Shown piece after piece: positions 36,897 through 52,163 of a DNA stretch of 54,781 nucleotides. The translations under genes were made by a program, and so were the position numbers. This DNA comes from a virus. Each line of letters begins with the position of its first letter. Position 1 is the stretch's first letter. Location of the stretch: the IMG/VR virus record IMGVR_UViG_3300027816_000127, positions 1 to 54,781 of that record; one strand, written 5' to 3'. The notes beneath the pieces are model-generated. The model worked only from the letters and a program-made list of their open reading frames with translations, did not search any database and was not told the DNA's origin.

Positions 36897-36928
36897 ATAT
36901 CTCAAAGTCAATTGGTTTTTTGAGATAT
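36897..36928 (-). repeat. Perfect 10-bp inverted repeat at predicted mRNA 5' end
   Basis: ATATCTCAAA and TTTGAGATAT form a perfect 10-bp stem with a 12-base loop. The 5' arm begins where the transcript from the promoter at 36935-36963 should start. Similar promoter-hairpin pairs lie at 42.0 and 52.1 kb with different arm sequences. Confidence 0.6.
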
Positions 36929-36934
36929 ACACAT

Positions 36935-36963
36935 TCTTTAACATAATTTCGAAAGGATGTCAA
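36935..36963 (-). promoter_or_regulatory. Sigma70-type promoter with weak -10
   Basis: TTGACA (36963-36958) with a 17-base spacer leads to TAAAGA (36940-36935), a poor -10. Location between genes and the downstream hairpin support it. Confidence 0.4.
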
Positions 36964-36970
36964 GTATATA

Positions 36971-37168
36971 TTATTCATAAATCCCAATATTGTTTAAACT
37001 TCCATCTTCATTGAAGTAAAATTCAGCAACAAATCCGATATATCCACTGACTTTCCCATTATTATCACTTATTGTAATAATTTTTCTATCACCTTCTTCG
37101 GTGATTTTAGGTATATATCCTATTGAAACAAGCATTTCTGTTAAATTATCAAGATGTGTTTTATTCAT
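36971..37168 (-). CDS. Small conserved phage protein (GYIGF / GIYE type)
   Basis: This 65-residue protein has AGGAAG ahead of the ATG. It ends VSGYIGFVAEFYFNEDGSL and then NIGIYE, a pattern I know from many small early phage proteins. The N-terminal LTEMLVSIGYIPK is loosely like the GMLPP family ending. Function unknown. Confidence 0.65.
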   Translation of the reverse strand: MNKTHLDNLTEMLVSIGYIPKITEEGDRKIITISDNNGKVSGYIGFVAEFYFNEDGSLNNIGIYE

Positions 37169-37179
37169 ATTTTTTCTTC

Positions 37180-37528
37180 CTAAGTAAAAAGCGAGCCGCT
37201 ACCTCACAACTTCTACAGCTAACCCCCTACGTCGTCATGCAACTTCAAGGTCTATAAGGTATGTGACACACTTTGTAAGTTTAAGGTTATTCGCTGCGGT
37301 TACAAACTAACAAACTCCCGCCCCGCTATCCTACCTTGAGTCGGCGTAGGACACCCAACAGCAATAGCATATAGCTACCACCAAGTAAGAAGTCTCTCCT
37401 TCCTGTCACCAACTTGAGCTGATCAGTCTCTAAGGCTATTGGTCGCCCCATCCCTACTCGATCTTCACTTGCTAAACGTAAAGCCGAAGCCATACTAACT
37501 ACACAAGGAGTGGACCCTCGGGCTAGTC
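37180..37528 (-). ncRNA. Candidate structured RNA, about 350 nt
   Basis: This is the largest gap in the early arm, clearly richer in G+C than its surroundings, with no supported gene. Read on the - strand it contains several stems: TCCTAC/GTAGGA with an 11-base loop, TTTGTAA/TTACAAA, CAAGT/ACTTG enclosing AGGAAG/CTTCTT, and TAGC/GCTA. The AGGAAG/CTTCTT stem has one G-U pair that would be an A-C mismatch on the + strand, favouring a - strand RNA. It ends in AGCGGCTCGCTTTTT. A 55-residue frame crosses it without a ribosome site. No tRNA or known RNA class is recognised. Confidence 0.4.
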
Positions 37529-37729
37529 TTATTTTGATTTCTTCTCTTTACTCCAGCTAAGGTTATCCTTAGCTTTTCCACATTCCCAACAAAACTCACC
37601 TTTCTTTTGCGGAGGCAACATGCCAAGCTTTTCAAAAACTTCAAGCATTCTCTCAACTTGCTCCACGTTAACGCAAACTGTGTTTAAGTCGTGGTTTAAA
37701 GCTTTTTTAATCATAGTGCTACGTTTCAT
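37529..37729 (-). CDS. GMLPP family microprotein with CxxC tail
   Basis: This 66-residue protein starts MKRSTMIKKALNH and has MLEVFEKLGMLPP near residues 28-40. A FCWECGKAKDN tail with a CxxC pair may bind metal. It belongs to the paralogous family seen at 36273, 42721 and 42923. GGAAGAG precedes the ATG. Confidence 0.65.
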   Translation of the reverse strand: MKRSTMIKKALNHDLNTVCVNVEQVERMLEVFEKLGMLPPQKKGEFCWECGKAKDNLSWSKEKKSK

Positions 37730-37730
37730 A

Positions 37731-37916
37731 CTACTCTTCCAATTCTGGTAAATCTTTTGCTAATTCTTGCATATAACCAAACTCAATAAATCCTACCACA
37801 AATGTTCCGTTAATTATAAAAGCTGCTACATTTTCTGCAGGTACTTTTGATTTAATTTCTCTTCTACCGATATGTCTACCAGTTTCAGCATCTTTTATTA
37901 TAATATATTCTTTCAT
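37731..37916 (-). CDS. Small hypothetical protein
   Basis: This 61-residue protein has AAAGGATTAGT before the ATG and ATGA overlap with the upstream gene. It is a compact alpha/beta sequence (EYIIIKDAETGRHIGRREI) with a final acidic helix. No family recognised. Confidence 0.6.
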   Translation of the reverse strand: MKEYIIIKDAETGRHIGRREIKSKVPAENVAAFIINGTFVVGFIEFGYMQELAKDLPELEE

Positions 37917-38200
37917 ACTAATCCTTTTGTTCTAAGATATTTAAAATGCTCATTTCTAAATGCCTCCTGTTCTTCCGAAGAAAGAAATCCTACACAATAA
38001 ATTAAAGTAGGATACAGATATGGGGGTATTTCTTGAGGAGGTCTTTTACATTGAACAATCTCATACTCAGGAGTAAATCCCCCTCTATAATAATATTCCC
38101 CCTTAGCCACAACCATAGCGATATTATGAGTAGCATACGATCCTAAATCGTACCAATCCTTATCGATGATTCTTTTTTTGAAAAGAACCTTATGACTCAT
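37913..38200 (-). CDS. Hypothetical protein
   Basis: This 95-residue protein has AAGGAG before the ATG. It has a basic N-terminus (SHKVLFKKRIIDKDWYDLG), then an YYYRGGFTPEYEIVQC core and a helical end. It is probably cytoplasmic. No family recognised. Confidence 0.6.
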   Translation of the reverse strand: MSHKVLFKKRIIDKDWYDLGSYATHNIAMVVAKGEYYYRGGFTPEYEIVQCKRPPQEIPPYLYPTLIYCVGFLSSEEQEAFRNEHFKYLRTKGLV

Positions 38201-38340
38201 TCTTCTTCACTCCTTGCCATAGCTCCAGATACAAACCAACACACAGCAAGGAGAGGAATTGTATACCAACCAAAACATAAGGTGAGTGCTGCAATTGCTC
38301 CAATAAATAATGGAAGTGTCATAATAAACTCTTCGCTCAT
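38197..38340 (-). CDS. 47-residue two-helix membrane protein
   Basis: AGGAGG lies just before the ATG and the stop overlaps the next start by ATGA. Two hydrophobic stretches (IMTLPLFIGAIAALTLCF and YTIPLLAVCWFVSGAM) and a charged C-terminus (ARSEEE) make a small hairpin membrane protein. Function unknown. Confidence 0.6.
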   Translation of the reverse strand: MSEEFIMTLPLFIGAIAALTLCFGWYTIPLLAVCWFVSGAMARSEEE

Positions 38341-38347
38341 AACCCTC

Positions 38348-38473
38348 CTAATTATCCAGAACAATGCCAGTTACTGGTCCAATTATAACTATTCCAATAA
38401 CCGCTGCGGGAGAAAATATACAGGCAACTCCCCAAGAAATCCACATTACACTTACCGCCGTGTATTTATTCAT
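38348..38473 (-). CDS. 41-residue membrane protein
   Basis: The start overlaps the upstream stop by ATGA. The protein is hydrophobic nearly throughout (VSVMWISWGVACIF and AAVIGIVIIGPVTGIVL). It and the following gene (38197-38340) form a pair of tiny membrane proteins. Confidence 0.55.
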   Translation of the reverse strand: MNKYTAVSVMWISWGVACIFSPAAVIGIVIIGPVTGIVLDN

Positions 38474-38634
38474 AACCATCCTATGTGTACAAGTTCACTA
38501 GCCGCCATAACTCTCATTCGCTTACGCCTAGTCTGCAAGTATAATATCATGGTTTTTGCCTGCATGTCAAGCTCGTAGCATCCAGTGAATAGAAGTAGCT
38601 CGTTGTTCTTTGGGCAGTAGAGTATTTCGGTCAT
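38470..38634 (-). CDS. 54-residue hypothetical protein
   Basis: The start overlaps the upstream gene by ATGA and the stop overlaps the next by ATGA. The sequence reads MTEILYCPKNNELLLFTG near the N-terminus and ends in a basic helix and ASELVHIGWL. Its middle encodes a TTGACA-18-TATTAT promoter. Confidence 0.55.
   Translation of the reverse strand: MTEILYCPKNNELLLFTGCYELDMQAKTMILYLQTRRKRMRVMAASELVHIGWL
38541..38570 (-). promoter_or_regulatory. Sigma70-type promoter with extended -10
   Basis: TTGACA (38570-38565), 18-base spacer, then TGATATTAT with TATTAT at 38546-38541 and a TG extension. It lies inside a small gene and would drive the membrane-protein cluster downstream. Confidence 0.5.
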
Positions 38635-38849
38635 TTTTTAAGAACCTTTAAAAACTCTTTAGCTTGCTGTTTAACCGTTCCCTCAACTAATTTAGGAGGA
38701 TTGTTTTGTGTAAAAAATTCAAGAAACGCAATCGTCTCATCAAGGCTAGTGTCACATTCTTGAATTAGAATGGAAACTTCTTTATGATCCATAAGTTCTG
38801 GATTAAAAAGACCTCCAGCTTGTAAATAATTTTTTATCTTACTCTTCAT
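38631..38849 (-). CDS. Small conserved phage protein (FNPELM type)
   Basis: This 72-residue protein contains AGGLFNPELMDHKEVSILI, a pattern shared by many small phage proteins of unknown function. A helical C-terminus (QQAKEFLKVLKK) follows. AGGAGTGAGAA precedes the ATG. Confidence 0.65.
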   Translation of the reverse strand: MKSKIKNYLQAGGLFNPELMDHKEVSILIQECDTSLDETIAFLEFFTQNNPPKLVEGTVKQQAKEFLKVLKK

Positions 38850-38856
38850 TTCTCAC

Positions 38857-38994
38857 TCCTATTAAAAAGGATTTAAAGGCTGGTCTATGCTCGCTCTCAA
38901 CCATTTACCCAAGCCTCTGTTAGCCGCTTGGCACCTACCGTTTATCTAGAATTAGCTCGCAACCAAAAGGCTGCAAGCCAAACGGCTCCTAGAA
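38857..38994 (-). ncRNA. Candidate structured RNA between polymerase and early small genes
   Basis: This 138-base stretch has no clear gene. On the - strand GGCTTGCAGCC and GGTTGCGAGCT pair over 11 positions with a TTTT loop (38954-38979). Three of the pairs are G-U, which exist only in a - strand RNA. An outer stem (GCCGTTT/AAACGGT) encloses it. CCAAGC/GCTTGG with an 11-base loop follows. An 18-residue hydrophobic frame (MILGAVWLAAFWLRANSR) that overlaps the polymerase stop by ATGA is the main competing reading. Confidence 0.4.
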
Positions 38995-41178
38995 TCATCC
39001 TACATTATACTGAGACATATTGTCAAGCGAATTTTTAAGAATAGCGTATTTTTTCTTTAGGCTATAGTTAGTGAAAAGATCATCAACTGGTAGGATTGTT
39101 TCAAAGGTTTGACTGGTCATATACAGTTTTTTAAGCAGAGTTGCTTTATCGTGGTCATTATTGTAATTTTCGACTAGGGAAAGCGATCCATCTTCTTTGT
39201 AATATAGATAGATTTTATCTCCCTCAACATAGTTAGAACCAGCTAGAGCATCTCTGACTTTAGCTTCGTTAGTTCTTTCGTTCTTAAGAATCTTGTCTGT
39301 AATTGTCTTCTTATGTGACCATCGAATAATGTCCTTGACATTCATAATTTCAAGAATATACTCATTGTAAAGATCGATGCATTTATCATGGATTACAGAG
39401 GTTTCTTTGTTATTCAAGATAATGTCAATTACACGCTGAATGAACTCCTTAAGAGCTGGTTCTTTTTGGGTAGCTTTAATTGCAGACCCCTTATACTTAA
39501 GTTTTTTACCATCCCAAAGGATATAGTTTTTAGCTTTAACTACGATAAAAGTAGGATAAAATCCATCATCTTCCCAAGAAATTTTGTCAGGAGTTAAGGC
39601 ATTAATTCCATCAATAATGAAGTTCTTTTCATCTTCTGACATATCTTCTTGATCCGCCCGACATACAGAAACAGAGTCAGTATCACAGTTAACTAATGTA
39701 TAATTATTTTCTGCAGACCACTCAATCGCTCCAGTTAAAATTTCACGACCTTTCGCAGTAATAAATGCTGCTTTAGATGGAGAGTTAAATAGAAGTCCGG
39801 CAGTTCCTAGAAATCCATAGCAAGAGTTAATGAAGATTTTTTCAGCTGCTTGCATATCGTCGTAATATTTGTCTGTCTTTGCTAGCTTTTTGTGCTCCAA
39901 ACGACGGGCAGTAAAAGTCGAAACGAGGGTTTTAAAGTATTCTCTTGGGTCTTTATCTTTGTCAAAGACTTCATACTGAATCATGATAGAAGGGTAAAGA
40001 GATGCAACGTCGAGCTTGAAAACGTTACGGTAGATTCCCGGATTTCCAATAGAGATAGCACCCTCGTATTCTTCAGCTTCGCTTGCTTTTGGTAGGCTGT
40101 GTCTATCCTGTAAATAAGCTCGCATCATGATGGTATTGATCTGACCACCAGTGGCAGATTCAAACATCATCTGGAAGGGTTTAGCAACGCTCTGAGTCAT
40201 ATAAAAGAATGGTGCGATCATTAGGTCATAAAGAGCCAGCGCATCGTCGGCATCGTCTTTACAATATTCTTTAATTACTTCCCAATGATCTGCTTTTTCG
40301 TAATTGAAGCGGATTTGACTTGCATCATAGAAAACTCGTCCTGGCTTTTCTAGTCCCTCTTGTGCGATGATTTTCTTAAGTCCGTATGATTCATACTTAC
40401 GACCAACATCATATCGGTAAGAAAGAAACATTGTGTCAATGATTTCTCTTCCCCAAATATGACATTTATGGTAATGAAGGTCTTTTGTCCCGTCTACTCT
40501 AAATTTTGACTCGTATTCTTCAATTTCAATTGGGTTGTCGTTTCTCCCCAATGTAAGATTCCTTCCATACAATGTAGCGCAGTGGTTAAGGTAAGGTATG
40601 TCAAACCCAAAGATATTGTGACCGATAATAATAGAAGGATCGACTTCTTGAACCCACTTACACCATGCTTCAATCATATCTCCATTGTTTTCATATTCGT
40701 CGTATGCGAATAGCTTTTTCTGAACCCCATCTACTGAACGAAATGTGTTTGAAATTAAAAGAACTTTTGACTCACTGTCATGAGAAAGCCCGACAGTTTC
40801 AATATCAAAAGAAAGAACAGAAACTTCATTGGCTTTTAATCCTTTGAAGTATGTATAGCCATCTTTTACCATCAATGCTTCTTTTGCATTTTTGATTGAA
40901 AAGATATCTCTTGCGTAGTTTTTCTTTCTGTAATCTAGGAATTCATCTCGATTAGTGAATTGCTTGCCCCACTTGTAATAAAGATCGCCATCTAATCTAT
41001 TAAAAGATTTGTCGAGATTATACGGTGCAAGAACCCAAAACTTATTTGGGACAATCTTTACATCTTTTAATCCATCTGGGAATTCACGAAATAGATAAGC
41101 TTTTTCATTTTCAACCTCAATTGATACAATGTATTCAACATCTGATTTTCCATAAATCAATCGAGCCTCTTTATTCAT
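38995..41178 (-). CDS. DNA polymerase, family B
   Basis: This 727-residue protein has all main motifs. Exonuclease: FDIET (D125, E127), GHNIFGFDIPYL (N188, D193) and EYCKDD (Y305, D309). Polymerase: KLDVASLYPS (D390, motif A), KIFINSCYG (447-455, motif B) and NCDTDS (499-502, motif C). It is the phage replicative polymerase with proofreading. The ATG has GGAGATAGT upstream and overlaps the stop of an HNH gene by ATGA. Length is short for T4-type enzymes but complete. Family B in a podovirus-like genome is less common than family A. Confidence 0.95.
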   Translation of the reverse strand: MNKEARLIYGKSDVEYIVSIEVENEKAYLFREFPDGLKDVKIVPNKFWVLAPYNLDKSFNRLDGDLYYKWGKQFTNRDEFLDYRKKNYARDIFSIKNAKEALMVKDGYTYFKGLKANEVSVLSFDIETVGLSHDSESKVLLISNTFRSVDGVQKKLFAYDEYENNGDMIEAWCKWVQEVDPSIIIGHNIFGFDIPYLNHCATLYGRNLTLGRNDNPIEIEEYESKFRVDGTKDLHYHKCHIWGREIIDTMFLSYRYDVGRKYESYGLKKIIAQEGLEKPGRVFYDASQIRFNYEKADHWEVIKEYCKDDADDALALYDLMIAPFFYMTQSVAKPFQMMFESATGGQINTIMMRAYLQDRHSLPKASEAEEYEGAISIGNPGIYRNVFKLDVASLYPSIMIQYEVFDKDKDPREYFKTLVSTFTARRLEHKKLAKTDKYYDDMQAAEKIFINSCYGFLGTAGLLFNSPSKAAFITAKGREILTGAIEWSAENNYTLVNCDTDSVSVCRADQEDMSEDEKNFIIDGINALTPDKISWEDDGFYPTFIVVKAKNYILWDGKKLKYKGSAIKATQKEPALKEFIQRVIDIILNNKETSVIHDKCIDLYNEYILEIMNVKDIIRWSHKKTITDKILKNERTNEAKVRDALAGSNYVEGDKIYLYYKEDGSLSLVENYNNDHDKATLLKKLYMTSQTFETILPVDDLFTNYSLKKKYAILKNSLDNMSQYNVG

Positions 41179-41759
41179 ACTATCTCCAAAATTAAATTAT
41201 TACTTTTTTTTAAATTTTCATTTTCTGTAATAATTCTAAGGTTCCAGGGAACATGCAATCCACATACATTTTTTCCTTGTAGTGGTATTATATGATCAAC
41301 ATTATGTCTTGTTCCGGTGGATATTGTCAAGTGTTTACTTTCTTTATATAAAAGTTCAATTTCTTTAAGTTGTTCTAATGAAAGCCATTTAGGAGTTGCG
41401 TTTAATTTTATTCCTCTTCTCTTATTGACTTTTGCTGTCAATTTCCACGGATATTTTTTAGCATAATTTTTGTTATTATTTTTAACCTTTTCTGGATATT
41501 TTTTAGCCCATTTTTCAAAAACATACTTAGATTTTTCTGGATTTCTTTTTCTCCATTTCCTAGAATATTCAGCATACTTTTCTTTATTTTTAATCTTGTA
41601 TTCTTTTTGTTTGTTTTTTATTTTATCCTTATTTTCATCCCTGTACTTTTTTTTGCATTTTTTACAATCACAAGCATAACCGGATTTTTGGTTTTTATCT
41701 TTATGAAAAAAAGTAATGTCTAATAATAACTTACACTTACTACAATATTTTTGGTTCAT
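41175..41759 (-). CDS. HNH homing endonuclease
   Basis: This 194-residue protein starts with a zinc-type segment (KYCSKCKLLL and CDCKKCKKKYRD). A long run of Lys/Asn-rich repeats (YRKWRKRNPEKSK-like) follows. It ends in an HNH core: HNVDHIIPLQGKNVCGLHVP and NLRIITENENLKKSN. Base composition is even more AT-rich than its neighbours, as often seen in recent insertions. It lies between a small early gene and the polymerase gene, and its target may be the polymerase region. Confidence 0.9.
   Translation of the reverse strand: MNQKYCSKCKLLLDITFFHKDKNQKSGYACDCKKCKKKYRDENKDKIKNKQKEYKIKNKEKYAEYSRKWRKRNPEKSKYVFEKWAKKYPEKVKNNNKNYAKKYPWKLTAKVNKRRGIKLNATPKWLSLEQLKEIELLYKESKHLTISTGTRHNVDHIIPLQGKNVCGLHVPWNLRIITENENLKKSNNLILEIV
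41301..41330 (-). promoter_or_regulatory. Possible promoter for the polymerase gene
   Basis: TTGACA (41330-41325), 18-base spacer and CATAAT (41306-41301) lie inside the HNH gene, about 120 bases upstream of the polymerase start. One -10 mismatch. Confidence 0.4.
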
Positions 41760-41780
41760 AAATTAGCTTATCATACTTCA

Positions 41781-41969
41781 TTAATGTTTCCCCTCAATTT
41801 CAGCTTGTAGAGCTTGCATTGCTAGACCAAACCAATTGTCATCACCATCATTGATAGTAATTTCAAAGTCGCCATTGATCTGAAACTTTTCCTGCATTTC
41901 TTGTGGTGTGTAGAATTCGCCTTTATACTCAATAAGGCGATTCATGTCTTTAAATTTAATAACTTTCAT
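41781..41969 (-). CDS. Small hypothetical protein
   Basis: This 62-residue protein (GEFYTPQEMQEKFQINGDFE core, acidic) is the first gene after the promoter/hairpin at 41979-42045. AAGGA lies directly after the hairpin. No family recognised. Confidence 0.6.
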   Translation of the reverse strand: MKVIKFKDMNRLIEYKGEFYTPQEMQEKFQINGDFEITINDGDDNWFGLAMQALQAEIEGKH

Positions 41970-41978
41970 AATATCCTT

Positions 41979-42013
41979 TTATTGGACTGGATTAAACGTT
42001 CAGCGTCCAATAA
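41979..42013 (-). repeat. Perfect 9-bp inverted repeat at predicted mRNA 5' end
   Basis: TTATTGGAC (42013-42005) and GTCCAATAA (41987-41979) form a 9-bp stem with a 17-base loop. The 5' arm starts 4 bases after the -10 box, and AAGGA of the gene at 41969 follows the 3' arm directly. Confidence 0.65.
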
Positions 42014-42016
42014 GAA

Positions 42017-42045
42017 ATAGTAGCATGTATTTTGGAGTTTGTCAA
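42017..42045 (-). promoter_or_regulatory. Sigma70-type promoter
   Basis: TTGACA (42045-42040), 17-base spacer and TACTAT (42022-42017). It lies in a gene-free gap and reads into the 9-bp hairpin and the gene at 41781-41969. Confidence 0.65.
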
Positions 42046-42093
42046 GATTAAATAATATATCAAAAGTGATATTCTACTTTTGTATAGAGTATA

Positions 42094-42240
42094 TTATTTA
42101 TCTTTATATTTAGGTTTTTTGCTGCCGTGCTTTTTATATTTCTTATTACATCCCTTATGTGGAGGACATATTGCGCAATGAATTCCGCTTTTTAGCTTAT
42201 GTTTGATTTTTAGGACTCGGCTATTTGTTTCTTCTTTCAT
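42094..42240 (-). CDS. 48-residue CPPH zinc-type microprotein
   Basis: This ORF fills part of a gap. It has CAICPPHKGCNKKYKKHG and then KKPKYKDK. The CxxCPPHxGxN...KPxyKd pattern is one I recognise in many small phage proteins. Two or three cysteines plus histidine could bind zinc. There is no good ribosome site close to the ATG, which lowers confidence. Confidence 0.55.
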   Translation of the reverse strand: MKEETNSRVLKIKHKLKSGIHCAICPPHKGCNKKYKKHGSKKPKYKDK

Positions 42241-42292
42241 AGAAAATGACTAGCAGCCACCTCACAACTGGGTATGTGACACCTCGGGGGGA
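42241..42292 (-). repeat. Shortened relative of the 37.2-37.5 kb non-coding element
   Basis: On the - strand this gap reads CCCGAGGTGTCACATACC, then AGTTGTGAGGTGGCTGC. The 37 kb element begins AGCCCGAGGGTCCAC and ends GTGTCACATACC ... AAGTTGTGAGGTAGCGGCT. The gap looks like the two ends of that element joined with the middle missing. TCACA/TGTGA can form a small hairpin here. Confidence 0.45.
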
Positions 42293-42484
42293 TTAGAAAA
42301 CGCGGAGACTGACTCCGTAGCGAGAAGCTACATTCTTAACTGTTTTGACAGGACGATGAATAATTGCAGCAATACTTTTTGCTGTTAGCGTTCCAGCATT
42401 AAATAGAATAAAATTTACAGTTCCTGGTGTTAGTTTTTTACCAAGTTTGGTTGCTTTACCATTTACATTAGAAAAACGACGCAT
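42293..42484 (-). CDS. Small HTH DNA-binding protein
   Basis: The ATG at 42484 follows AAAGGAG. The 63-residue protein has LTAKSIAAIIHRPVKTVKNV and then ASRYGVSLRV, a clear helix-turn-helix pattern with a basic N-terminus. It is likely a phage regulator or small accessory DNA-binding protein; its target sites are unknown. Confidence 0.65.
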   Translation of the reverse strand: MRRFSNVNGKATKLGKKLTPGTVNFILFNAGTLTAKSIAAIIHRPVKTVKNVASRYGVSLRVF

Positions 42485-42517
42485 AGATACTCCTTTGTTT
42501 GGTTTACTAATCATATA

Positions 42518-42936: not shown

Positions 42937-43120
42937 CTTCAGGCTCCCATTTATGTGCATATCTAACGTGCTCTAAATCAAAAATGAAATTTGGATCATG
43001 CTCTGGAGGAAGCATTCCTATATTTTCTAATGTTCTTAAAACATCTTCACAAGTTTCGTAAGAAACTCCAATCGGTCCTAATCTTTTAAATATAAACTCC
43101 ACAGCTAAACTACGTTTCAT
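42923..43120 (-). CDS. GMLPP family microprotein
   Basis: This 65-residue protein starts MKRSLAVEFIFKRL and has VLRTLENIGMLPP near residues 27-39, then a charged tail. It lies directly upstream of its paralogue at 42721-42936, with a 14-base overlap. The start overlaps the previous gene by 11 bases. Confidence 0.7.
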   Translation of the reverse strand: MKRSLAVEFIFKRLGPIGVSYETCEDVLRTLENIGMLPPEHDPNFIFDLEHVRYAHKWEPEDEEK

Positions 43121-45315: not shown

Positions 45316-45917
45316 GCGTTAAATTTATTCATTATGAAATTAAAAATAATCGCAGTATTTAGTGCATCGCTTTCTGCCCAATGTGATCCATACTGCTTTC
45401 CATTGTATTTAGTTGGCTGAAACTCAAGTCCAAGTTTTCTAAGGCTTTTCCCAAGTCCTCCCTGTGCTTTCAATCCAGCCTTGACTGCGTACAATTGGAA
45501 TAGAACTTTAGCGTTGATCGTTGATCTAGCAAGTCCCGTTGCAATTCTAAACTCATCTTCAGACAAGCTAAGTTCATTTCTAAGACAATTGATATCACCA
45601 GAACCCCACTCCACAATCTGTCTGCTAGTATTGTAGAATTCTCTCAGCCATTTAATGCTAGATACAACATCTACTAGAGTATTACTTGAATCATTAACTT
45701 GAAAGTCTTGAATTCCAGTTAGTGTTTTAATGAAGTTACTTAGTGGATATTCATATGAAACAAAGATCGTTCTCGATTCTAGAACTGTAATTTCAGTTCC
45801 AAGCTCAAATACAACAAGTCCAACTTGAATAATTCTTTCTTGTTCTACAGCGGAATCTGGAGTTTGTGGGTTTGTTTTTGGTTGTTCTAGTTCTAGATCG
45901 ATTGCGATAAATCTCAT
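45312..45917 (-). CDS. DnaQ-like (DEDDh) exonuclease
   Basis: This 201-residue protein has IAIDLELEQ (D7, E9), EWGSGDINCLRNE (D108) and GSHWAESDALNTA (H179, D184), the DEDDh set of DnaQ/RNase T-type exonucleases. It could proofread, trim RNA or degrade host nucleic acid. Its promoter would start the mRNA at or next to the ATG, giving a leaderless message. It ends inside the promoter of the primase gene. Confidence 0.85.
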   Translation of the reverse strand: MRFIAIDLELEQPKTNPQTPDSAVEQERIIQVGLVVFELGTEITVLESRTIFVSYEYPLSNFIKTLTGIQDFQVNDSSNTLVDVVSSIKWLREFYNTSRQIVEWGSGDINCLRNELSLSEDEFRIATGLARSTINAKVLFQLYAVKAGLKAQGGLGKSLRKLGLEFQPTKYNGKQYGSHWAESDALNTAIIFNFIMNKFNA

Positions 45918-45923
45918 GCTGAC

Positions 45924-45952
45924 ATAATAGCGTATAAATTGGATGTTGTCAA
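45924..45952 (-). promoter_or_regulatory. Promoter predicted to give a leaderless mRNA
   Basis: TTGACA (45952-45947), 17-base spacer and TATTAT (45929-45924). Seven bases further is the A of the ATG at 45917. No ribosome site is visible before that ATG. Confidence 0.6.
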
Positions 45953-46271: not shown

Positions 46272-46716
46272 TGTTTTCCTCCGTTGTTTTCAATAGTTCC
46301 TGCTCTTGTTCTTCTGTAAGCTTGGCTTCAGCCGCAGCTACAATCTGTTCAAGATTATCCTTATAAACACTCATTTGCATAATGAACTTAGCTTCAATTA
46401 GAAAGTTAGCCAGTTGCATTACTGAATGCTCTGCTTCATTTGCAGCCTTAACGCTATCCTTTTCAAGCGGATAGAAAATAAGGTAATCTAGGATACGACG
46501 AAGACTGCGCTTTGATAGCTTTGGTACAGCCATTTTGTAGTATGGTCCGTACATCGCATAAGCGGTAGCCGCCATCTCTGCTGGATCGTCTGCTCGCTCT
46601 TGAGCAGCCTTCACCATGAAGTCTTCTACTTCTTTACCTGTTAAGCCTAAATCGGCTAGATCGACCGGCTTTTCTTCTACTTCTTCAACACTTTCCACAT
46701 TTGTTTCTTCTGACAT
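46264..46716 (-). CDS. Helical hypothetical protein next to ERF
   Basis: The ATG at 46716 follows GGAGC. The 150-residue protein has an acidic N-terminus and a helical core (SKRSLRRILDYLIFYPL, with a stretch of Met/Ala-rich helix). Conserved position after ERF suggests a recombination or replication accessory, but no domain is recognised. Confidence 0.6.
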   Translation of the reverse strand: MSEETNVESVEEVEEKPVDLADLGLTGKEVEDFMVKAAQERADDPAEMAATAYAMYGPYYKMAVPKLSKRSLRRILDYLIFYPLEKDSVKAANEAEHSVMQLANFLIEAKFIMQMSVYKDNLEQIVAAAEAKLTEEQEQELLKTTEENNG

Positions 46717-46718
46717 TT

Positions 46719-47267
46719 TTAGCTCCAAGAGTCTTCTGACCCAGTTGTTTCGACCTTATTTACATTAACTACTTCTTTTTTATTTGCTGCAACTCCGAAA
46801 CCCTTTTTAGGTGCTTCGACTTTAGGTTGCTCAACTACCACAGGCTTGTTATTATTGACATTGTTGTTTTTAAATCCGTCGCTGGATGCGTCATTGTCTT
46901 CAGTTGGAAGACCAGTCAATGCCTGTAGCTGATATCTCTTCAAGTATGATTGGGCTGCTCCTGCTCGTTGTGCTTCATTACAACCTCGCATCTCAGGAAT
47001 TCCTGTAGAGCCAGTTGAACCAATATACTGACCAGATGAATGAATAAGTAGAGTTGTAACCTTTACTGTATTAGCATCCGAATCTTCAATCAGTTGAGTG
47101 AAGCTAATTCCATGCTTGTTAAGTGCTGGCTTTACAGCTTCAATAACTGCACCTAGATCAGCGTACTTGTAAGCGTGTGCTTTGCTATCTTTAATAGCAG
47201 AAGTCATTTCTGTTTGTGCCTTAACCAAGGCTGTTGCTAGTTCATTAATGTTTTCTGATTTAATCAT
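46719..47267 (-). CDS. ERF-family single-strand annealing protein
   Basis: This 182-residue protein has the ERF core: HAYKYADLGAVIEAVKPAL (about 31-49), HGISFTQ, then GIPEMRG and QRAGAAQSYLKRYQLQALTG (100-119). A flexible Asn/Lys-rich tail follows. ERF proteins pair complementary single strands in phage recombination. AGGGAGG precedes the ATG. With the Cas4/RecB-like nuclease at 47850 it forms a plausible resection-annealing pair. Confidence 0.92.
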   Translation of the reverse strand: MIKSENINELATALVKAQTEMTSAIKDSKAHAYKYADLGAVIEAVKPALNKHGISFTQLIEDSDANTVKVTTLLIHSSGQYIGSTGSTGIPEMRGCNEAQRAGAAQSYLKRYQLQALTGLPTEDNDASSDGFKNNNVNNNKPVVVEQPKVEAPKKGFGVAANKKEVVNVNKVETTGSEDSWS

Positions 47268-47284
47268 ATATTTCCCTCCCTATA

Positions 47285-47476
47285 TTAATAAATAGCTCGC
47301 TTTACTAGACGACCATCGGCTTGTGGTGCTGGTTCAGTTTCTCTAATTGGTCGAAGACGTAGCATCAAATAAGTCGAATTATTAGCTGTGAACTGATAAT
47401 CGAATACATAACCATTGCTCAACAATTCGTTAACCTCTGTCAATGTTTCATCGGACAGCTTTACGATTTTTGTCAT
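47285..47476 (-). CDS. Small hypothetical protein with structured leader
   Basis: This 63-residue protein (ETLTEVNELLSNGYVFDYQF core) is the first gene after the promoter at 47555-47584 and precedes ERF. AAAGGATGTTAA serves the ATG. No family recognised. Confidence 0.6.
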   Translation of the reverse strand: MTKIVKLSDETLTEVNELLSNGYVFDYQFTANNSTYLMLRLRPIRETEPAPQADGRLVKRAIY

Positions 47477-47508
47477 TTAACATCCTTTGTGATAAAATAT
47501 AAATTCGG

Positions 47509-47524
47509 ATTCTCATGCGAGAAT
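47509..47524 (-). repeat. Leader hairpin
   Basis: ATTCTC/GAGAAT with a 4-base GCAT loop lies in the predicted leader of the gene at 47285. A second small stem (TTTGA/TCAAA) lies at about 47531-47543. Confidence 0.4.
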
Positions 47525-47543
47525 TGAAATCTTTGAAAATCAA

Positions 47544-47571
47544 ATCTCCTGTGCATAATACATCAGGAGAT
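47544..47571. promoter_or_regulatory. Palindrome around the -10 box, operator-like
   Basis: ATCTCCTG and CAGGAGAT are perfect 8-bp arms 12 bases apart and enclose the TATTAT -10 box. The placement is typical of a repressor site. The same palindrome is not seen at the other promoters here. Confidence 0.45.
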
Positions 47572-47584
47572 GGTATGTTGTCAA
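47555..47584 (-). promoter_or_regulatory. Promoter of the recombination operon
   Basis: TTGACA (47584-47579), 18-base spacer and TATTAT (47560-47555). Predicted start near 47548 gives a leader of about 70 bases before the ATG at 47476. It would drive the genes down to the terminator at 45955. Confidence 0.6.
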
Positions 47585-47595
47585 CAATTTTATTT

Positions 47596-47853
47596 TCATT
47601 CTGTTGCATATACGCCTTTTTTCACTAGGTTAAGTTCTAATTCGTATTTGGCATCCCATAGGTTTTCACCTTCGTAAATAACTTTTGGTGCTCCAGTTGC
47701 TAAGGTTTTGCTATTAACTGGGATTTCTACAACCTTTCGACGCTTTCCTTCTCCCTTTACAATAGTTAAAGCGATTGTATCGAAGCTTTGTTCGTTTTCA
47801 ACTGCCCCACCAAAATCATCCACTTCCTCTTTTTTATTCTTTGCTTTACTCAT
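47596..47853 (-). CDS. Hypothetical protein after Cas4-like nuclease
   Basis: The ATG at 47853 follows AAAGGAGC and overlaps the upstream stop by ATGA. The 85-residue protein has an acidic/basic N-terminus, then a beta core (TIALTIVKGEGKRRKVVEIP) and an ELELNLVKKGVY end. It may bind nucleic acid given the basic core; no family recognised. Confidence 0.6.
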   Translation of the reverse strand: MSKAKNKKEEVDDFGGAVENEQSFDTIALTIVKGEGKRRKVVEIPVNSKTLATGAPKVIYEGENLWDAKYELELNLVKKGVYATE

Positions 47854-48938
47854 TTTTGCTCCTTTTTTGTACAAACAAGCCCAGTCATATCTTTATTATT
47901 ATGACAGTAGTTATAATATGGACATTTTACTTTTCCGTTATATCTAATACAAGATTCCCTGTTTTCCTCGAACTCTCCTGCCGTAATTCTAGCATTTACT
48001 ATATTAAACTTTTCTAAAACTTCCTGCATCTTTTCTTCTGGTATTTCATCTACAATATACTGAATAACTGCTTCTGGATAAATTTTGTAATTAAATGCAC
48101 CATTACATCTTTTGTTATTGATTTTATTTGTGCAGGTTTTTACATTTGTACCAGAGTCGTCGTGACCACAAACTGAACATATCTTTTCTCTATTCTTTTT
48201 AATTCCCTTATGGAGCACAACATAGCCAGCTTTTTTCATGTCTGGATACTTGCTTCTAAGAAAAAACTTATATAAAGCTAATTGATCTGACTCTACGACG
48301 GAATTCTTATCGTAGTATTTTGTTGTGGTTTTTAGGTCAATTACAACCGCCCCGTTGATTCCTTTAAGGCGCAAGACGAAATCGGCTTTACCATTTACCT
48401 TATTACCGTCACCATCTTCTAGCTCAATGACTTCTTGACAAGATAGAACCTCCTCGACATTAGAATCAACCCACTCAATGAATTTATTAACAAGGAATGT
48501 CCCTTTGCGATAAAGAGAAATCCAGTTACAATAAGCTAGTCTTGTTGCGTCTTCTTCTGATTTTTCTTCTTTTTTGGAAAGAGATTCAAAGAGAGACCGT
48601 ACACTTTCAAATGGTGTATCTTTAAGAATAAATTCGTTATCGGATTGAACGAGAAGCTCATAATCAAAGTCAGTAGGTAGATACTTAACCTCTGTACTAA
48701 GTTGAAGGTCGATGGTTTGTCCATTATGTTCTACCTCTTTCCACTTTTGCTTAAAGATTTCTTTTGCTCTAAGTGGATTTCTTTCTTTAATATAATCTTC
48801 ACAAGCGGCATCTATTGCCGATCCATAGATAAGTTGACTTGATAATTCAACTGGTCGAATCTTTTCGATGTAGTATAATTGATACTCTTTTCCGCAGGTT
48901 AGATATCTATTTACTGACGAGTGTGATAGTGAATTCAT
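47850..48938 (-). CDS. Cas4/RecB-like PD-(D/E)XK nuclease
   Basis: The start at 48938 overlaps the upstream stop by ATGA. The 362-residue protein begins SLSHSSVNRYLTCGKEYQLY (C15). It has the nuclease core GKADFVLRL (D186) and VVIDLKTTT (D201, K203), then SDQLALYK (Q219). A four-cysteine insert lies at about residues 255-280 (CSVCGHDD to CTNK to RCNGA). C-terminal cysteines CIRYNGKVKCPYYNYC with C15 could hold an iron-sulphur cluster as in Cas4/AddB. It is likely the 5' resection partner of ERF. Confidence 0.85.
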   Translation of the reverse strand: MNSLSHSSVNRYLTCGKEYQLYYIEKIRPVELSSQLIYGSAIDAACEDYIKERNPLRAKEIFKQKWKEVEHNGQTIDLQLSTEVKYLPTDFDYELLVQSDNEFILKDTPFESVRSLFESLSKKEEKSEEDATRLAYCNWISLYRKGTFLVNKFIEWVDSNVEEVLSCQEVIELEDGDGNKVNGKADFVLRLKGINGAVVIDLKTTTKYYDKNSVVESDQLALYKFFLRSKYPDMKKAGYVVLHKGIKKNREKICSVCGHDDSGTNVKTCTNKINNKRCNGAFNYKIYPEAVIQYIVDEIPEEKMQEVLEKFNIVNARITAGEFEENRESCIRYNGKVKCPYYNYCHNNKDMTGLVCTKKEQK

Positions 48939-49417
48939 TTGTATCTCTCTTCGTCCCAATGTAGTTTTATACAGTCACCAGTCTTGCAACCAAAATACTC
49001 ATTAACATATTTTTGGTAATTAATGACATAGCTTATACCTAAAAACTTAGCAGCTTGCATTATGCTTGGAGGTGCGTCGTGTTCATAGTTTAGTACACAA
49101 TGACCAAGTTCGTGCATAATTAATTCGTCTTTATGATAGAGCTTTGCTTTTTCCCAGAATCTTCTATCTATCTCTACTCTGTTAATTAAGTAGTAACAAA
49201 CTCCAGCTGTTCCTTCATCTAAGTCCGCGAATTGAATTTCTGTTTCTCTGACCTTACCAATATACCTATCTAATCCAAACCTGTGTAAATTTTGAATATA
49301 TTCTTCGACAAAAGGAGAAAAGCTAGATTGCTTCAGCCCGTTCGTCGAGGGTTTTGTTTCCATTAATAAGCTTAATACTGCGGAAAATATTAAAATGTGC
49401 AGAACCCTTGATATCAT
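48935..49417 (-). CDS. Zincin with HELGH, probably exported
   Basis: The core DELIMHELGHCVLNYEHD, followed by a PSIM Met-turn-like segment, is a clear zinc peptidase signature; two cysteines lie near the end (FGCKTGDC). Two starts exist. The ATG at 49417 has AAGG upstream and gives a signal-like N-terminus (HILIFSAVLSLL), but its first 95 bases overlap the HNH gene. The ATG at 49363 gives a cytoplasmic form with no good ribosome site. The first is preferred (160 residues). Confidence 0.65.
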   Translation of the reverse strand: MISRVLHILIFSAVLSLLMETKPSTNGLKQSSFSPFVEEYIQNLHRFGLDRYIGKVRETEIQFADLDEGTAGVCYYLINRVEIDRRFWEKAKLYHKDELIMHELGHCVLNYEHDAPPSIMQAAKFLGISYVINYQKYVNEYFGCKTGDCIKLHWDEERYK

Positions 49418-49643
49418 TGCAGCCCTTACATACAAGTCTCAGATTAGCTTGAGCATGAGTTCCACCCTTTGAGATTGGGATAAAGTGGTCAATCGTTGCT
49501 AGGTCTGGACAGTTTTTATTTTCAGTGTGAAGATTTCTTTTTCCACAATACTCACAAACATAAACTCCATTATTTTTTTCAAGATTGCGGAGTCTAATTA
49601 CTTTTTTATTCTTATGAAAATTACCGCTATATCCCTTAGCCAT
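49323..49643 (-). CDS. HNH endonuclease
   Basis: This 106-residue protein has YVCEYCGKRN, then ATIDHFIPISKGGTHAQ and LRLVCKGCNDIKGS, a typical HNH with two CxxC pairs. AAAGGG precedes the ATG. Its last 32 codons may be overlapped by the start of the zincin gene in another frame. It may be a homing enzyme. Confidence 0.88.
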   Translation of the reverse strand: MAKGYSGNFHKNKKVIRLRNLEKNNGVYVCEYCGKRNLHTENKNCPDLATIDHFIPISKGGTHAQANLRLVCKGCNDIKGSAHFNIFRSIKLINGNKTLDERAEAI

Positions 49644-49770
49644 AGTCTTTCCCTTTGTGTTTAGATTTTCTAGTGTAATCCTTCTTAGATTTCATTACAC
49701 TATTAGGTTTTTTTGCAACCGGCTTCCTAGTCTTTGGAATCGGTATAGTCAGTTTAAATGATTTCTTCAT
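49636..49770 (-). CDS. 44-residue basic protein (RKPVAKKP family)
   Basis: This ORF fills the gap before the HNH gene and overlaps it by 8 bases. It contains KTRKPVAKKPNSVMKSKKDY, then RKSKHKG, a pattern I recognise in many tiny phage proteins. It is strongly basic and may bind nucleic acid. Function unknown. Confidence 0.6.
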   Translation of the reverse strand: MKKSFKLTIPIPKTRKPVAKKPNSVMKSKKDYTRKSKHKGKDYG

Positions 49771-49775
49771 GGTTG

Positions 49776-50069
49776 TCAAGTCCTAAAAGCATTTATAAAT
49801 GCTTTTTTATTTACAGCAACTGAACAAAAAGCCGAATTAGTACATCCTGTTATTCTTTTTACAATGAAAGTATCATCATAGAATTCGATAAATAGACCGT
49901 TACTAAATTTCCTAATTCTATCTTGACTATTATAGTATGAAATAAAGCCCTCATTACCTCCATATTCTTTCCATACTCTAACCCTAGATAGATCCCATTT
50001 ATCTGGATAATACAGTCTCCAGTCGCAACCTGAGAAAAAGCAAAGTAATTTAATTAGAAATAATTTCAT
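49776..50069 (-). CDS. Predicted lipoprotein
   Basis: The ATG at 50069 gives MKLFLIKLLCFFSGC, a short signal with a lipobox-like FSGC; a TTG at 50078 is an alternative. The 97-residue product has a beta-rich core and two more cysteines (TGCTNSAFC). It may sit on the outer membrane and act in exclusion or lysis. No ribosome site is obvious. Confidence 0.55.
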   Translation of the reverse strand: MKLFLIKLLCFFSGCDWRLYYPDKWDLSRVRVWKEYGGNEGFISYYNSQDRIRKFSNGLFIEFYDDTFIVKRITGCTNSAFCSVAVNKKAFINAFRT

Positions 50070-50472
50070 GGTTGTCAAGCTTTATGTTTTTTAAAATAAC
50101 TTCATATATAGGTTTGTTTAGTTTTAACATTTCTTTTTTCATATTTGCCGATCCCTTTGAATCTCCATCCCATATTAAAAGTAAAGCATCTGCATATTCT
50201 GCCATTTCTTTGTTCCTTATAGGACCAGCTGCTTTACCGTGTTTGTCCCATTCTGCAGGAAATTCTTTATATCTTCCAAAAAAATGTTTATCGTATACAG
50301 TTGGTCCTGTGCTTTCACATAGTCTCTTTGCTGCAAAATCTATTCCAGATGCCCCACCAGAAACAACTTCTGAAATTTCACAAACTCGTCCAGCTAAATA
50401 AAAATTTAAAACGTTATGTAGGAATGTATGATGAATCTTAAAATTCCTACTTCCAGCAATAATTAATTTCAT
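50050..50472 (-). CDS. SLOG-family protein (DUF2493/YspA type)
   Basis: This 140-residue protein has KLIIAGSRNF at the N-terminus, VVSGGASGIDFAAKRL, then FPAEWDKHGKAAGPIRNKEM and ADALLLIWDGDSKGSANM. This is the full Rossmann-like pattern of DUF2493. SLOG proteins bind nucleotides or nucleotide-derived ligands. In phages the role is unknown but could include nucleotide metabolism or defence evasion. AGGAAATAATTT precedes the ATG. Confidence 0.88.
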   Translation of the reverse strand: MKLIIAGSRNFKIHHTFLHNVLNFYLAGRVCEISEVVSGGASGIDFAAKRLCESTGPTVYDKHFFGRYKEFPAEWDKHGKAAGPIRNKEMAEYADALLLIWDGDSKGSANMKKEMLKLNKPIYEVILKNIKLDNHEIISN

Positions 50473-50482
50473 AAATTATTTC

Positions 50483-50566
50483 CTATATAATATAGAAAAT
50501 TACTAATATAATTATACAAATAACGAGTTCACCAAGGAACCATTTATCTGAAAAGGATAATTTCAT
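50483..50566 (-). CDS. 27-residue membrane peptide
   Basis: The start overlaps the upstream stop by ATGA, and the next ribosome site lies at its end. A single hydrophobic helix (LGELVICIIILVIFYII) follows a short charged head. The coupling supports it, but tiny hydrophobic frames can arise by chance. Confidence 0.45.
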   Translation of the reverse strand: MKLSFSDKWFLGELVICIIILVIFYII

Positions 50567-50757
50567 TTCTTCTCCAAGATACATCTCTCAAGAGCTTTGT
50601 GTTTTACTAAATTAGTTTTATTATTTACACAATGGATATATGATTGTTGGCATGATAACTGTTTTCTAGCTACATCATTAATATAAGAATATCTTGCGTT
50701 CTCATCGTTTGTTGCTGTTACTTGGCATAACATAGCAATTGCAATAAAAAAATCCAT
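50563..50757 (-). CDS. Small exported-type cysteine protein
   Basis: GGAGAAACTATA precedes the ATG. The 64-residue protein starts with a short hydrophobic signal (FFIAIAMLCQVTATN). Three more cysteines follow at SCQQ, HCVN and RCIL. Spacing suggests one or two disulphides in the periplasm. Family unknown. Confidence 0.55.
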   Translation of the reverse strand: MDFFIAIAMLCQVTATNDENARYSYINDVARKQLSCQQSYIHCVNNKTNLVKHKALERCILEKK

Positions 50758-51470
50758 TATAGTTTCTCCTTAATCGGATGATCATCTGGAAAATAAAGAT
50801 TACATTGATTGTCAAAATCTCCAAATTTATTCATTAGAAAATTGACAATTCTATCTGCTAACTTTGGACTTCTCATGAGTTTCTTAAGTTTGAATCCCAA
50901 CATTACTGTTGTTTTCTCTTTTCGAAATATAGTAAATAAGCTAGCGATGATAAAATACAAAGTCCTAATAAGCCCAGGTGACCGATTAGCACATCTGTAA
51001 TAGAAGTATTGTTGTTCAGGGCGATGCCAAAAAGCAAGGCTCCAGATAGCTGGATACTTAACGACAGCGGTTCTAGGATTTTCTTCATTTGCTAAACCCT
51101 CATATGCTTCGATTACATCGTTGATTACAAGCTTGCGAAATGGAGCAGGCGTGAATCCTTCTATATCACAATACTGGAAGTAATTCTTTTCACCGAACTC
51201 AACAATATCAGCAGCGTATGTTACATCTAGTCCAGCAAGTCCAACATACTCATCGTGGCTGATTGGAATATGATATCCACCAGGATGACGAGAAATAGCT
51301 TTTTCATCTAAGCTATTGACTTCATTACTAATAACTGAGTCAAATTCAACTGGCAGTCCAACCATTGATGCATAGAAGCTATAGATGTATGCATTGTTTG
51401 TTGGATATGGATTAGTTTCTGTTACTGGTTTGATATGCCATCTTCCATGTTTGTCAATGTAATTACTCAT
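50757..51470 (-). CDS. Conserved phage protein, unknown
   Basis: This 237-residue protein follows AGGAGAAAAAT directly after a promoter (51488-51516). The N-terminus contains the KPVTETNPYPTNNAYIYSF pattern. The middle has HPGGYHIPISHDEYVGLAGL and a SLAFWHRPEQQYFYYRC stretch. A C-terminal helical region follows. I recall similar large hypothetical proteins in tailed phages. Hydrophobic helix LYFIIASLFTIF suggests membrane contact. A separate membrane ORF is nested in another frame (50903-51088). Confidence 0.65.
   Translation of the reverse strand: MSNYIDKHGRWHIKPVTETNPYPTNNAYIYSFYASMVGLPVEFDSVISNEVNSLDEKAISRHPGGYHIPISHDEYVGLAGLDVTYAADIVEFGEKNYFQYCDIEGFTPAPFRKLVINDVIEAYEGLANEENPRTAVVKYPAIWSLAFWHRPEQQYFYYRCANRSPGLIRTLYFIIASLFTIFRKEKTTVMLGFKLKKLMRSPKLADRIVNFLMNKFGDFDNQCNLYFPDDHPIKEKL
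50903..51088 (-). CDS. Nested small membrane protein (tentative)
   Basis: This 61-residue ORF lies wholly inside the previous gene in another frame. GAGGG lies 8-9 bases upstream of its ATG. It has two hydrophobic helices (LSIQLSGALLFGIAL and VLIGHLGLLGLCILSSLAYLLYF) and a basic end (EKRKQQ), a holin-like layout. It could also be chance, as alternative frames of AT-rich genes often look hydrophobic. Confidence 0.35.
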   Translation of the reverse strand: MKKILEPLSLSIQLSGALLFGIALNNNTSITDVLIGHLGLLGLCILSSLAYLLYFEKRKQQ

Positions 51471-51487
51471 ATTTTTCTCCTAATTGA

Positions 51488-51516
51488 AAGATAACACAAA
51501 GAAAAAGATTTGTCAA
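51488..51516 (-). promoter_or_regulatory. Sigma70-type promoter, very short leader
   Basis: TTGACA (51516-51511) holds the TGA stop of the upstream gene; spacer 17; TATCTT (51493-51488). The start would fall near 51481, right at AGGAG and 11 bases before the ATG at 51470. Confidence 0.55.
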
Positions 51517-51830
51517 TTAGAATTTTTCTTTATTAAAATCAGATTATTATGGAAAGCACCGGCTTTTTCATTTTTATCTTTTCTTGCTTTTTGAATATCT
51601 TTTTTTGTGAAGTCCATAACTTCTATGTACTTATCTAGAATTTCGTAAAGGTCAGCGAGCTCTTCTAATAATTCTTCTCTTGTCTTTGAGTTAATAACTT
51701 CGTTAAGTTCTTCTTGTACTTTCTCTATGGCATACATAGGGACACTGTATTTATCCGCAATTTCAATTTCCAAGGTTCTACCCTGTTCTTTTGCAATATC
51801 TGGAATTTTATCTCTAATTAGTTTTTTCAT
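51513..51830 (-). CDS. MazG-like NTP pyrophosphohydrolase
   Basis: This 105-residue protein has KKLIRDKIPDI at the N-terminus, then VQEELNEVI, LLEELADLYEILDKYI and a final GAFHNN. These match the all-alpha NTP-PPase (MazG-like) pattern with its acidic metal-binding helices (EELADLYE). It would hydrolyse unusual or excess nucleotides. Confidence 0.85.
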   Translation of the reverse strand: MKKLIRDKIPDIAKEQGRTLEIEIADKYSVPMYAIEKVQEELNEVINSKTREELLEELADLYEILDKYIEVMDFTKKDIQKARKDKNEKAGAFHNNLILIKKNSN

Positions 51831-51913
51831 ATTACTTTTTTACCTAAAAGCATTTTCCACAAAAGCCTACCAATTACAAATCCAATAGCATACACGAATA
51901 TTTCGTAGTTCAC
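51827..51913 (-). CDS. 28-residue membrane peptide
   Basis: This GTG start lies after AAGGAATTAAA and overlaps the upstream stop (GTGA). The peptide has one hydrophobic helix (IFVYAIGFVIGRLLWKML) and a basic end. It ends in ATGA overlap with the MazG gene. The good ribosome site makes it likely real. Confidence 0.55.
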   Translation of the reverse strand: MNYEIFVYAIGFVIGRLLWKMLLGKKVI

Positions 51914-52098
51914 TTTAATTCCTTTACCTTAGATGCATCAATCATAAGCTTCAATGAATTATTAATTACTTCACCATTAGCTAAAGCTAGAACATCTTCA
52001 ATTGCTTGACAATATCCTTCGTTATAAATTTCTTCTACGTCTTTCTTTGTGTATGGGAGAGAATACTGATATTGTTTGAGAACTTGATCTAAAGTCAT
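51910..52098 (-). CDS. Small hypothetical protein
   Basis: This 62-residue protein (SLPYTKKDVEEIYNEGYCQA core) is the first gene after the promoter and hairpin at 52104-52163. Its AAGGAG site lies in the 3' arm of the hairpin, so translation may depend on opening it. No family recognised. Confidence 0.6.
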   Translation of the reverse strand: MTLDQVLKQYQYSLPYTKKDVEEIYNEGYCQAIEDVLALANGEVINNSLKLMIDASKVKELK

Positions 52099-52103
52099 AT
52101 ATG

Positions 52104-52133
52104 CTCCTTAGCCTCTTCATTGAAGCTAAGGAG
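52104..52133 (-). repeat. Perfect 9-bp inverted repeat holding the ribosome site
   Basis: CTCCTTAGC (52133-52125) and GCTAAGGAG (52112-52104) with a 12-base loop. AAGGAG, the ribosome site of the gene at 52098, is in the 3' arm. The 5' arm begins two bases after the -10 box. Confidence 0.65.
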
Positions 52134-52134
52134 A

Positions 52135-52163
52135 AAGATACATTATAATTATTCGTTTGTCAA
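52135..52163 (-). promoter_or_regulatory. Sigma70-type promoter
   Basis: TTGACA (52163-52158), 17-base spacer and TATCTT (52140-52135), at the end of the thioredoxin gene. The predicted start falls inside or next to the hairpin arm. Confidence 0.55.

Follow-up and report, generated by a model that had tools for sequence, protein, structure and literature searches.

What might a perfect inverted repeat do when it stands directly behind a promoter and, in two cases out of three, at a ribosome-binding site (RBS)? The question is raised by three sites, at 36.9, 42.0 and 52.1 kb, on the minus strand of the 54,781-nucleotide (nt) virus record IMGVR_UViG_3300027816_000127 (positions 1 to 54,781; 54.8 kb; hereafter the window), which is, judged from its genes, an uncultured tailed phage. 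An earlier note on this DNA had read all three repeats as hairpins at the 5' ends of the messages made from these promoters. We arrive at a divided reading, in which we place about even confidence: the 52.1 kb repeat is an RNA switch of the type known from T4 gene e, here set on a sigma70-like promoter, and the repeats at 42.0 and 36.9 kb are 5' hairpins of their own messages. Control at 52.1 kb is likely to act at the level of RNA, by a logic opposite to the one first suggested.

The letters bear out the three perfect inverted repeats, with arms of 10, 9 and 9 bp at 36.9, 42.0 and 52.1 kb, respectively, and all three are preceded by TTGACA with a 17-bp spacer, but at 36.9 kb the -10 box is poor (TAAAGA, 3/6). 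The gap between the -10 box and the arm, previously given as 2-7 bases, is 6 nt at 36.9 kb and 3 nt at 42.0 kb, within that range, and 1 nt at 52.1 kb, outside it; the position that had been called conserved is thus a loose one. None of the three repeats is included in a listing of intrinsic terminators (a G+C-rich stem with a T run behind it). Promoters are identified here by their match to the consensus, from which all transcript starts are predicted; the start chosen by bacterial RNA polymerase is normally a base 7-9 nt after the -10 box, preferably a purine.

At 52.1 kb, the promoter (TTGACA-17-TATCTT; 52135..52163, minus strand; a consensus match only, with 4/6 in the -10 box) leads into the 5' arm CTCCTTAGC (52125..52133), the first six bases of which, CTCCTT, are the strand complementary to the Shine-Dalgarno sequence (anti-SD). 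The 3' arm GCTAAGGAG (52104..52112) contains the Shine-Dalgarno sequence (SD) AAGGAG (52104-52109) of a 62-amino-acid (aa) open reading frame (ORF; 51910..52098, minus strand) that has no assigned function and no Pfam or PHROG match. Since a start at the usual distance from the -10 box would fall within the 5' arm, the gene's own mRNA would lose the anti-SD strand: the predicted start, A 52127, lies past six of the nine arm bases, and a message beginning there would retain only AGC. We propose that CTCCTT would occupy the discriminator of the promoter, between -10 and +1. Read-through from the codirectional thioredoxin-like gene upstream (52149..52535, minus strand), the proposed source, would carry the anti-SD strand and form a stem of 12 bp in which the SD of the 62-aa ORF is hidden, whereas messages from the local promoter would begin inside the anti-SD strand, without it, and hence be translatable. 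Translation of this ORF, the gene controlled in our proposal, would then depend on where its transcript starts.

For the complete 52.1 kb leader, the predicted fold is a stem of 12 bp, one of them U-G, with an energy of -19.3 kcal/mol (z -5.4, 0/200 shuffles as good). The predicted probability that the SD is unpaired is 0.00 in the read-through RNA and 0.34-0.48 in the gene's own RNA, depending on whether this starts at the seventh, eighth or ninth base after the -10 box. SD accessibility at this site is the second lowest of 180 gene starts in the window and its extension, four of which round to 0.00; two further starts with hidden SDs, 38200 and 50472, were dropped (fold z -0.2 and -1.1). The genes upstream of the site are codirectional with the 62-aa ORF, and no terminator-like site was found on the minus strand between the promoter at 53582 and 52163. 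The suggestion that the repeats act as RNA structure is the best reading at 52.1 kb and fits 42.0 kb, with the amendment that at 52.1 kb the full hairpin would form in read-through mRNA only.

In T4 gene e, read-through RNA hides the SD and the RNA of a local promoter, which lacks the 5' strand, is translated (PMC3014915); the same hairpin logic is described for soc, 49, I-TevI, segB and mobE of Aeh1 (PMC3014915; PMC2988022). Our prediction applied to gene e gives an unpaired SD with a probability of 0.00 in the read-through RNA and 0.58 in the gene's own RNA, and CCTTC stands directly after the late -10 box TATAAATA. By sequence and predicted fold, the two sites are alike in that read-through RNA hides the SD, that the DNA encoding the 5' strand is also promoter DNA, so that RNA started there would escape, and that the anti-SD stands close behind the -10 box, directly in gene e and after 1 nt at 52.1 kb. 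They differ in that gene e has a late promoter (TATAAATA) with early/late separation, whereas the 52.1 kb site has TTGACA-17-TATCTT. Because the latter is not of the phage-late type, the 52.1 kb site would work like gene e, outside the T4 late-gene class. The insertion sequences IS10 and IS50 follow the same logic, in that read-through mRNA hides the transposase RBS and the element's own mRNA is without the pairing strand, but they do so at transposon ends and not before a phage gene. No paper on anti-SD discriminators was found by title or by the start of its abstract, in a search beyond the reach of which most subscription papers lay.

The same layout recurs in other environmental phages. 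We scanned IMG/VR for a promoter with an anti-SD hexamer just after the -10 box and an SD behind it, using a non-complementary hexamer of the same composition as control. The layout was present in 32 stretches (20 distinct after merging at 75% identity) versus 7 (7 distinct) for the control (P 0.01 for distinct stretches), and a start codon followed the SD in 17 versus 6 (P 0.017). With the anti-SD shifted to 5-25 nt after the -10 box, 36 stretches (20 distinct, 7 with a start codon) were found over all 21 positions together. A same-strand ORF ended within 100 nt before or up to 30 nt into the promoter in 27/32 layout matches versus 2/7 controls, although 7 of those 27 have the TGA inside TTGACA as their sole stop, so that some of these ORF ends are mechanical. 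A scan with eight hexamers yielded at least 119 stretches, and 108 loci (66 distinct) were examined, all from L017-L038, L049-L052 and L093-L177; among the matches listed, the exact complement accounted for 12 distinct cases, compared with 4, 5 and 2 for three hexamers that have C as their last base and an equal or higher C content.

As a stronger test, bases outside the fixed pattern were examined for extra pairing against shuffled partners, with small samples throughout. Outward pairing, into the -10 box, assessed at 121 loci (73 distinct) with a gap of 0-1 nt only, was equalled by 0/500 shuffles in the complementary set (n=17) and by 420/500 in the controls (n=25). For inward pairing, the corresponding counts were 1/500 in the complementary set (n=7), 4/500 in the G-U variants (n=16) and 273/500 in the controls (n=14). 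In a rerun with 1000 shuffles, the outward counts were 1 for complementary, 141 for G-U and 856 for control hexamers, and the inward counts were 3, 19 and 527, respectively. When L040 was left out, the outward count of the complementary set was 10/1000; when L030 and the site in the window were left out, its inward count was 16/1000 (n=6). Pfam searches with eight viral proteins encoded behind such matches returned DUF7173 (L030), a Sak annealing protein, a NUMOD4/HNH endonuclease and an HTH_3 protein (L121); three of the eight had no Pfam match and one had a below-cut-off NinG match only.

Covariation could be followed outside the window. L030 and L040 precede homologues of 50% identity and keep the stem, with one pair in the -10 arm changed from G-C (L030) to C-G (L040), an exchange seen in one family and few sequences, but of the compensatory type for which the earlier note had proposed to look in relatives. 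In both leaders the -10 box and the anti-SD pair with the SD and bases beyond it, with a one-base bulge. L030, L040, L043 and L137 are leaders of homologous phage genes in which the -10 box itself pairs with bases after the SD, and L137 has U-G where C-G stands otherwise; two Roseobacter phages with distant homologues (26-28%) showed no such leader on inspection by eye. For the window itself, scans of viral contigs with the DNA polymerase, a 237-aa protein and the 62-aa protein of the 42.0 kb site found one close relative only, the identical record IMGVR_UViG_3300042691_027063 (95.6 kb), which matches the window over 28998-54781, the part compared, and extends past the window's end. Polymerases with 42-44% identity were found in five further viral records (L003-L007) and weak matches with 22-25% in another three (L013-L015), and blastn of the window against L002-L008 gave an alignment to the identical record only. 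There was no polymerase relative in genome_contigs, and INPHARED yielded no near DNA match for 36-46 kb and only distant polymerases.

Several observations weigh against a switch at 52.1 kb. A transcript start at 52133-52134, which would be unusual, would restore the reading of the earlier note, and the freeing of the SD in the gene's own RNA is partial (0.34-0.48) and of a kind that own transcripts also show in 21/25 controls. If the upstream and the local promoter are both of the host type, it is not obvious how early and late expression would be separated. In IMG/VR the exact complement is in modest excess (20 versus 7 distinct), and the controls, too, lie 0-1 nt after the -10 box (7/7), so that part of the position effect is due to pyrimidine-rich discriminators or composition. 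Hexamers that could pair through G-U were without clear excess among the matches listed (CTCTTT 13, TTCTTT 13 and TTCCTT 6, versus TTCTTC 11), and their outward pairing was not significant (75/500, n=31; 141/1000 in the rerun). Finally, five of ten bacterial proteins encoded behind strong stems are repressors; the ten were scanned out of 25 and were hand-picked for strong stems.

This last point belongs to the alternative that survives best, although we consider it unlikely: each repeat would be a DNA operator, a dyad for a repressor dimer just past the -10 box and overlapping the transcript start, and its overlap with the SD would be incidental. The half-sites at 52.1 kb lie 21 bp apart from centre to centre, that is, two helical turns, and one viral example (L121) precedes an HTH_3 protein. 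A pattern scan of genome_contigs found 77 stretches (65 distinct) whose extra symmetry, outer as well as inner, was equalled by 0/500 shuffles. SD-containing dyads right after the -10 box were seen there before genes for HrcA (L183), an RHH protein (L184), TetR proteins (L189 and L228) and a metal-sensing regulator (L214). These bacterial dyads at repressor genes are probably DNA operators that include the SD, and symmetry alone is therefore no proof of RNA; they may also act as RNA hairpins. The CIRCE operator of HrcA, with the consensus TTAGCACTC-N9-GAGTGCTAA, and presumably the L183 dyad, which we take to be CIRCE, resemble the 52.1 kb repeat in being a dyad just after the -10 box that overlaps the SD. 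The CIRCE arms, however, differ from those at all three sites, and no repressor gene was found behind these sites.

The arms of the three repeats are also unrelated to each other, which had earlier been held against a shared operator. Three proteins would indeed be required, but operators are still compatible with differing arms if each serves another protein. It also tells against operators that the 52.1 kb stem extends through a U-G step, that inward extension is seen with hexamers capable of G-U pairing and not with C-A ones, and that L040, L030 and L039 need a one-base bulge, which is unlike a dimer site. The downstream gene at 52.1 kb has no regulator signature, in that its protein is without a family match, and without a match in INPHARED, and a single-sequence model of it (three helices of 8, 20 and 19 residues) returned nothing at E <= 0.001 in fold searches. 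On these four grounds, namely the U-G step, the G-U-capable hexamers, the bulges and the nature of the downstream gene, we lean towards RNA at 52.1 kb.

That all three repeats are 5'-terminal hairpins of their own mRNAs, acting against decay or tuning translation, seems to us quite improbable, and yet two of the sites lend themselves to it well. At 42.0 kb, the promoter (TTGACA-17-TACTAT; 42017..42045, minus strand; 4/6 in the -10 box) is followed by arms TTATTGGAC and GTCCAATAA of 9 bp with a 17-nt loop (41979..42013). The stem ends exactly where the SD AAGGAT (41973-41978) begins, which, like the SD within the 3' arm at 52.1 kb, agrees with the earlier description of hairpins meeting the ribosome site. 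The likely start, A 42011, leaves 7/9 pairs and a mostly free SD (predicted unpaired probability 0.76), and in our preferred reading this repeat most likely forms a hairpin at the 5' end of its own message, with the SD free next to it. It precedes a 62-aa ORF without assigned function (41781..41969, minus strand), behind which lie an endonuclease VII-like gene and then the family B DNA polymerase. At 36.9 kb, the promoter candidate TTGACA-17-TAAAGA (36935..36963, minus strand) matches TATAAT weakly, and arms ATATCTCAAA and TTTGAGATAT of 10 bp with a 12-nt loop (36897..36928) begin at the predicted +1, exactly the seventh base after the -10 box; if the weak promoter works, its message would open with a clean stem. 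Downstream lies a 48-aa ORF (36711..36857, minus strand) with a doubtful SD and no Pfam match, the product of which is likely a membrane protein, to judge from its sequence. Both stems may protect the message or tune initiation.

Protective stem-loops at the 5' terminus are known (titles cited in PMC3997798). Messages of the ompA type carry them at the very 5' end, where the stems at 36.9 and 42.0 kb would also stand, given the predicted starts. For seg43 of Aeromonas phage 25, a hairpin is described directly upstream of an RBS that it does not hide (PMC2988022). The 42.0 kb hairpin likewise adjoins the RBS, and in both cases the role is putative, but seg43 is a homing endonuclease gene, whereas the 42.0 kb hairpin stands before a 62-aa ORF followed by the endonuclease VII-like and polymerase genes. 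An own-message hairpin is hard to reconcile with the 52.1 kb site, where 6/9 arm bases precede the likely start and where transcription of the complete repeat would leave the SD inaccessible (0.01) in the gene's only message. It also gains nothing from the weak -10 box at 36.9 kb. We judge about ten TTGACA sites in the window to be plausible promoters by position (53582, 52163, 51516, 45952, 45315, 42538, 42045, 38570, 36963 and 34646). Some seven of these ten have no repeat, and in the stretches scanned from L003-L007, five records with a homologous polymerase, no exact-TTGACA promoter leads into an arm of 8 bp or more, which speaks against a systematic device. A further site, 47584, was rejected as a promoter on reading by eye, as it lies inside a 53-codon ORF. 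The predicted starts fall inside the arm at 52.1 kb, leave 7 of 9 pairs at 42.0 kb and coincide with the beginning of the arm at 36.9 kb, so that the sites differ in kind. A fourth case is possible on the plus strand at a late-arm gene (4857..4904), where TGG-TATAAT, an extended -10 box with only TTAACG as -35, leads directly into ACCTAAGGA...TCCTTAGGT, a 9-bp repeat that spans the SD, located in its 5' arm, and the ATG (4886).

That unrelated repeats merely happen to follow these promoters is very improbable: perfect repeats as such (arms of at least 9 bp, loops of 3-22 nt) are not in excess, with 9 in the window versus 3-9 in ten Markov sequences, but their placement is, since an arm of at least 9 bp beginning 0-8 nt after the -10 box follows 3/40 promoter-like TTGACA sites (-10 box of at least 3/6, spacer 16-18) versus 6/3,735 decoys with permuted -35 hexamers, and the three leaders have fold z scores of -5.4 (52.1 kb), -2.0 and -3.0. 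On the minus strand of the early arm alone, the counts are 3/26 versus 2/833 decoys (Poisson P about 4e-5), a P value that is optimistic because the placement criterion was chosen once the data had been seen and derives from them. The remaining 37/40 TTGACA sites are followed by no arm reaching 7 bp.

Up to about 30.8 kb the ORFs of the window lie mainly on the plus strand; from there onwards they lie mainly on the minus strand, which encodes, among others, a family B DNA polymerase, a primase-helicase and exonucleases. A search of the window found no tRNA, and Rfam covariance models run against the whole window gave 0 matches at the gathering score. Adjoining the thioredoxin-like gene, 52466-53020 (minus strand) has a ferredoxin-type match to phrog_3704, in the moron/auxiliary category. 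At 45917-45952 (minus strand), TTGACA-17-TATTAT-GTCAGC-ATG places the start codon at the predicted +1, and the mRNA may be leaderless as far as the letters tell; the protein encoded behind it, of 201 aa, resembles exonucleases (phrog_192, E 0.002; Pfam RNase_T, below cut-off). From the promoters at 51488-51516 and 53554-53582 (both minus strand), transcription is predicted to begin at the SD or immediately ahead of it, and their leaders would be very short. A two-part repeat, GTGTCACATACC ... GTTGTGAGGT(A/G)GC(G/T)GCT, is present twice in the window, in exact copies on the minus strand (37194-37269 and 42252-42282), each directly upstream of a small ORF. The first copy sits in a gap of 360 bp for which no minus-strand ORF of 60 aa is listed, and the GC-richer stretch at 37.2-37.4 kb has no Rfam match at the gathering score and a fold z of 0.06, with one snoRNA match nearby (E 1.5).

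Taken together, the 52.1 kb site probably follows the known logic of gene e, with the host-type promoter as its new part, and a general message-protecting device is probably not what these repeats represent. Phage genes lie in long codirectional runs, in which the separate expression of single genes is a real question. We suggest, as a tentative and somewhat doubtful generalization, that in many phages with ordinary host-type promoters the discriminator contains the anti-SD strand and thereby silences a gene on every read-through message. If this is true, six or so untranscribed bases between -10 and +1 would be part of the promoter and a translational insulator at once, and each gene of a long codirectional cluster would be translated only from its own start site. 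The SD-containing dyads at bacterial repressor genes likewise raise the question of whether operators act at the RNA level too. If discriminators do double as anti-SD strands, genes insulated from read-through could be predicted from sequence alone, and what has been a special case in T4 would become a general rule.

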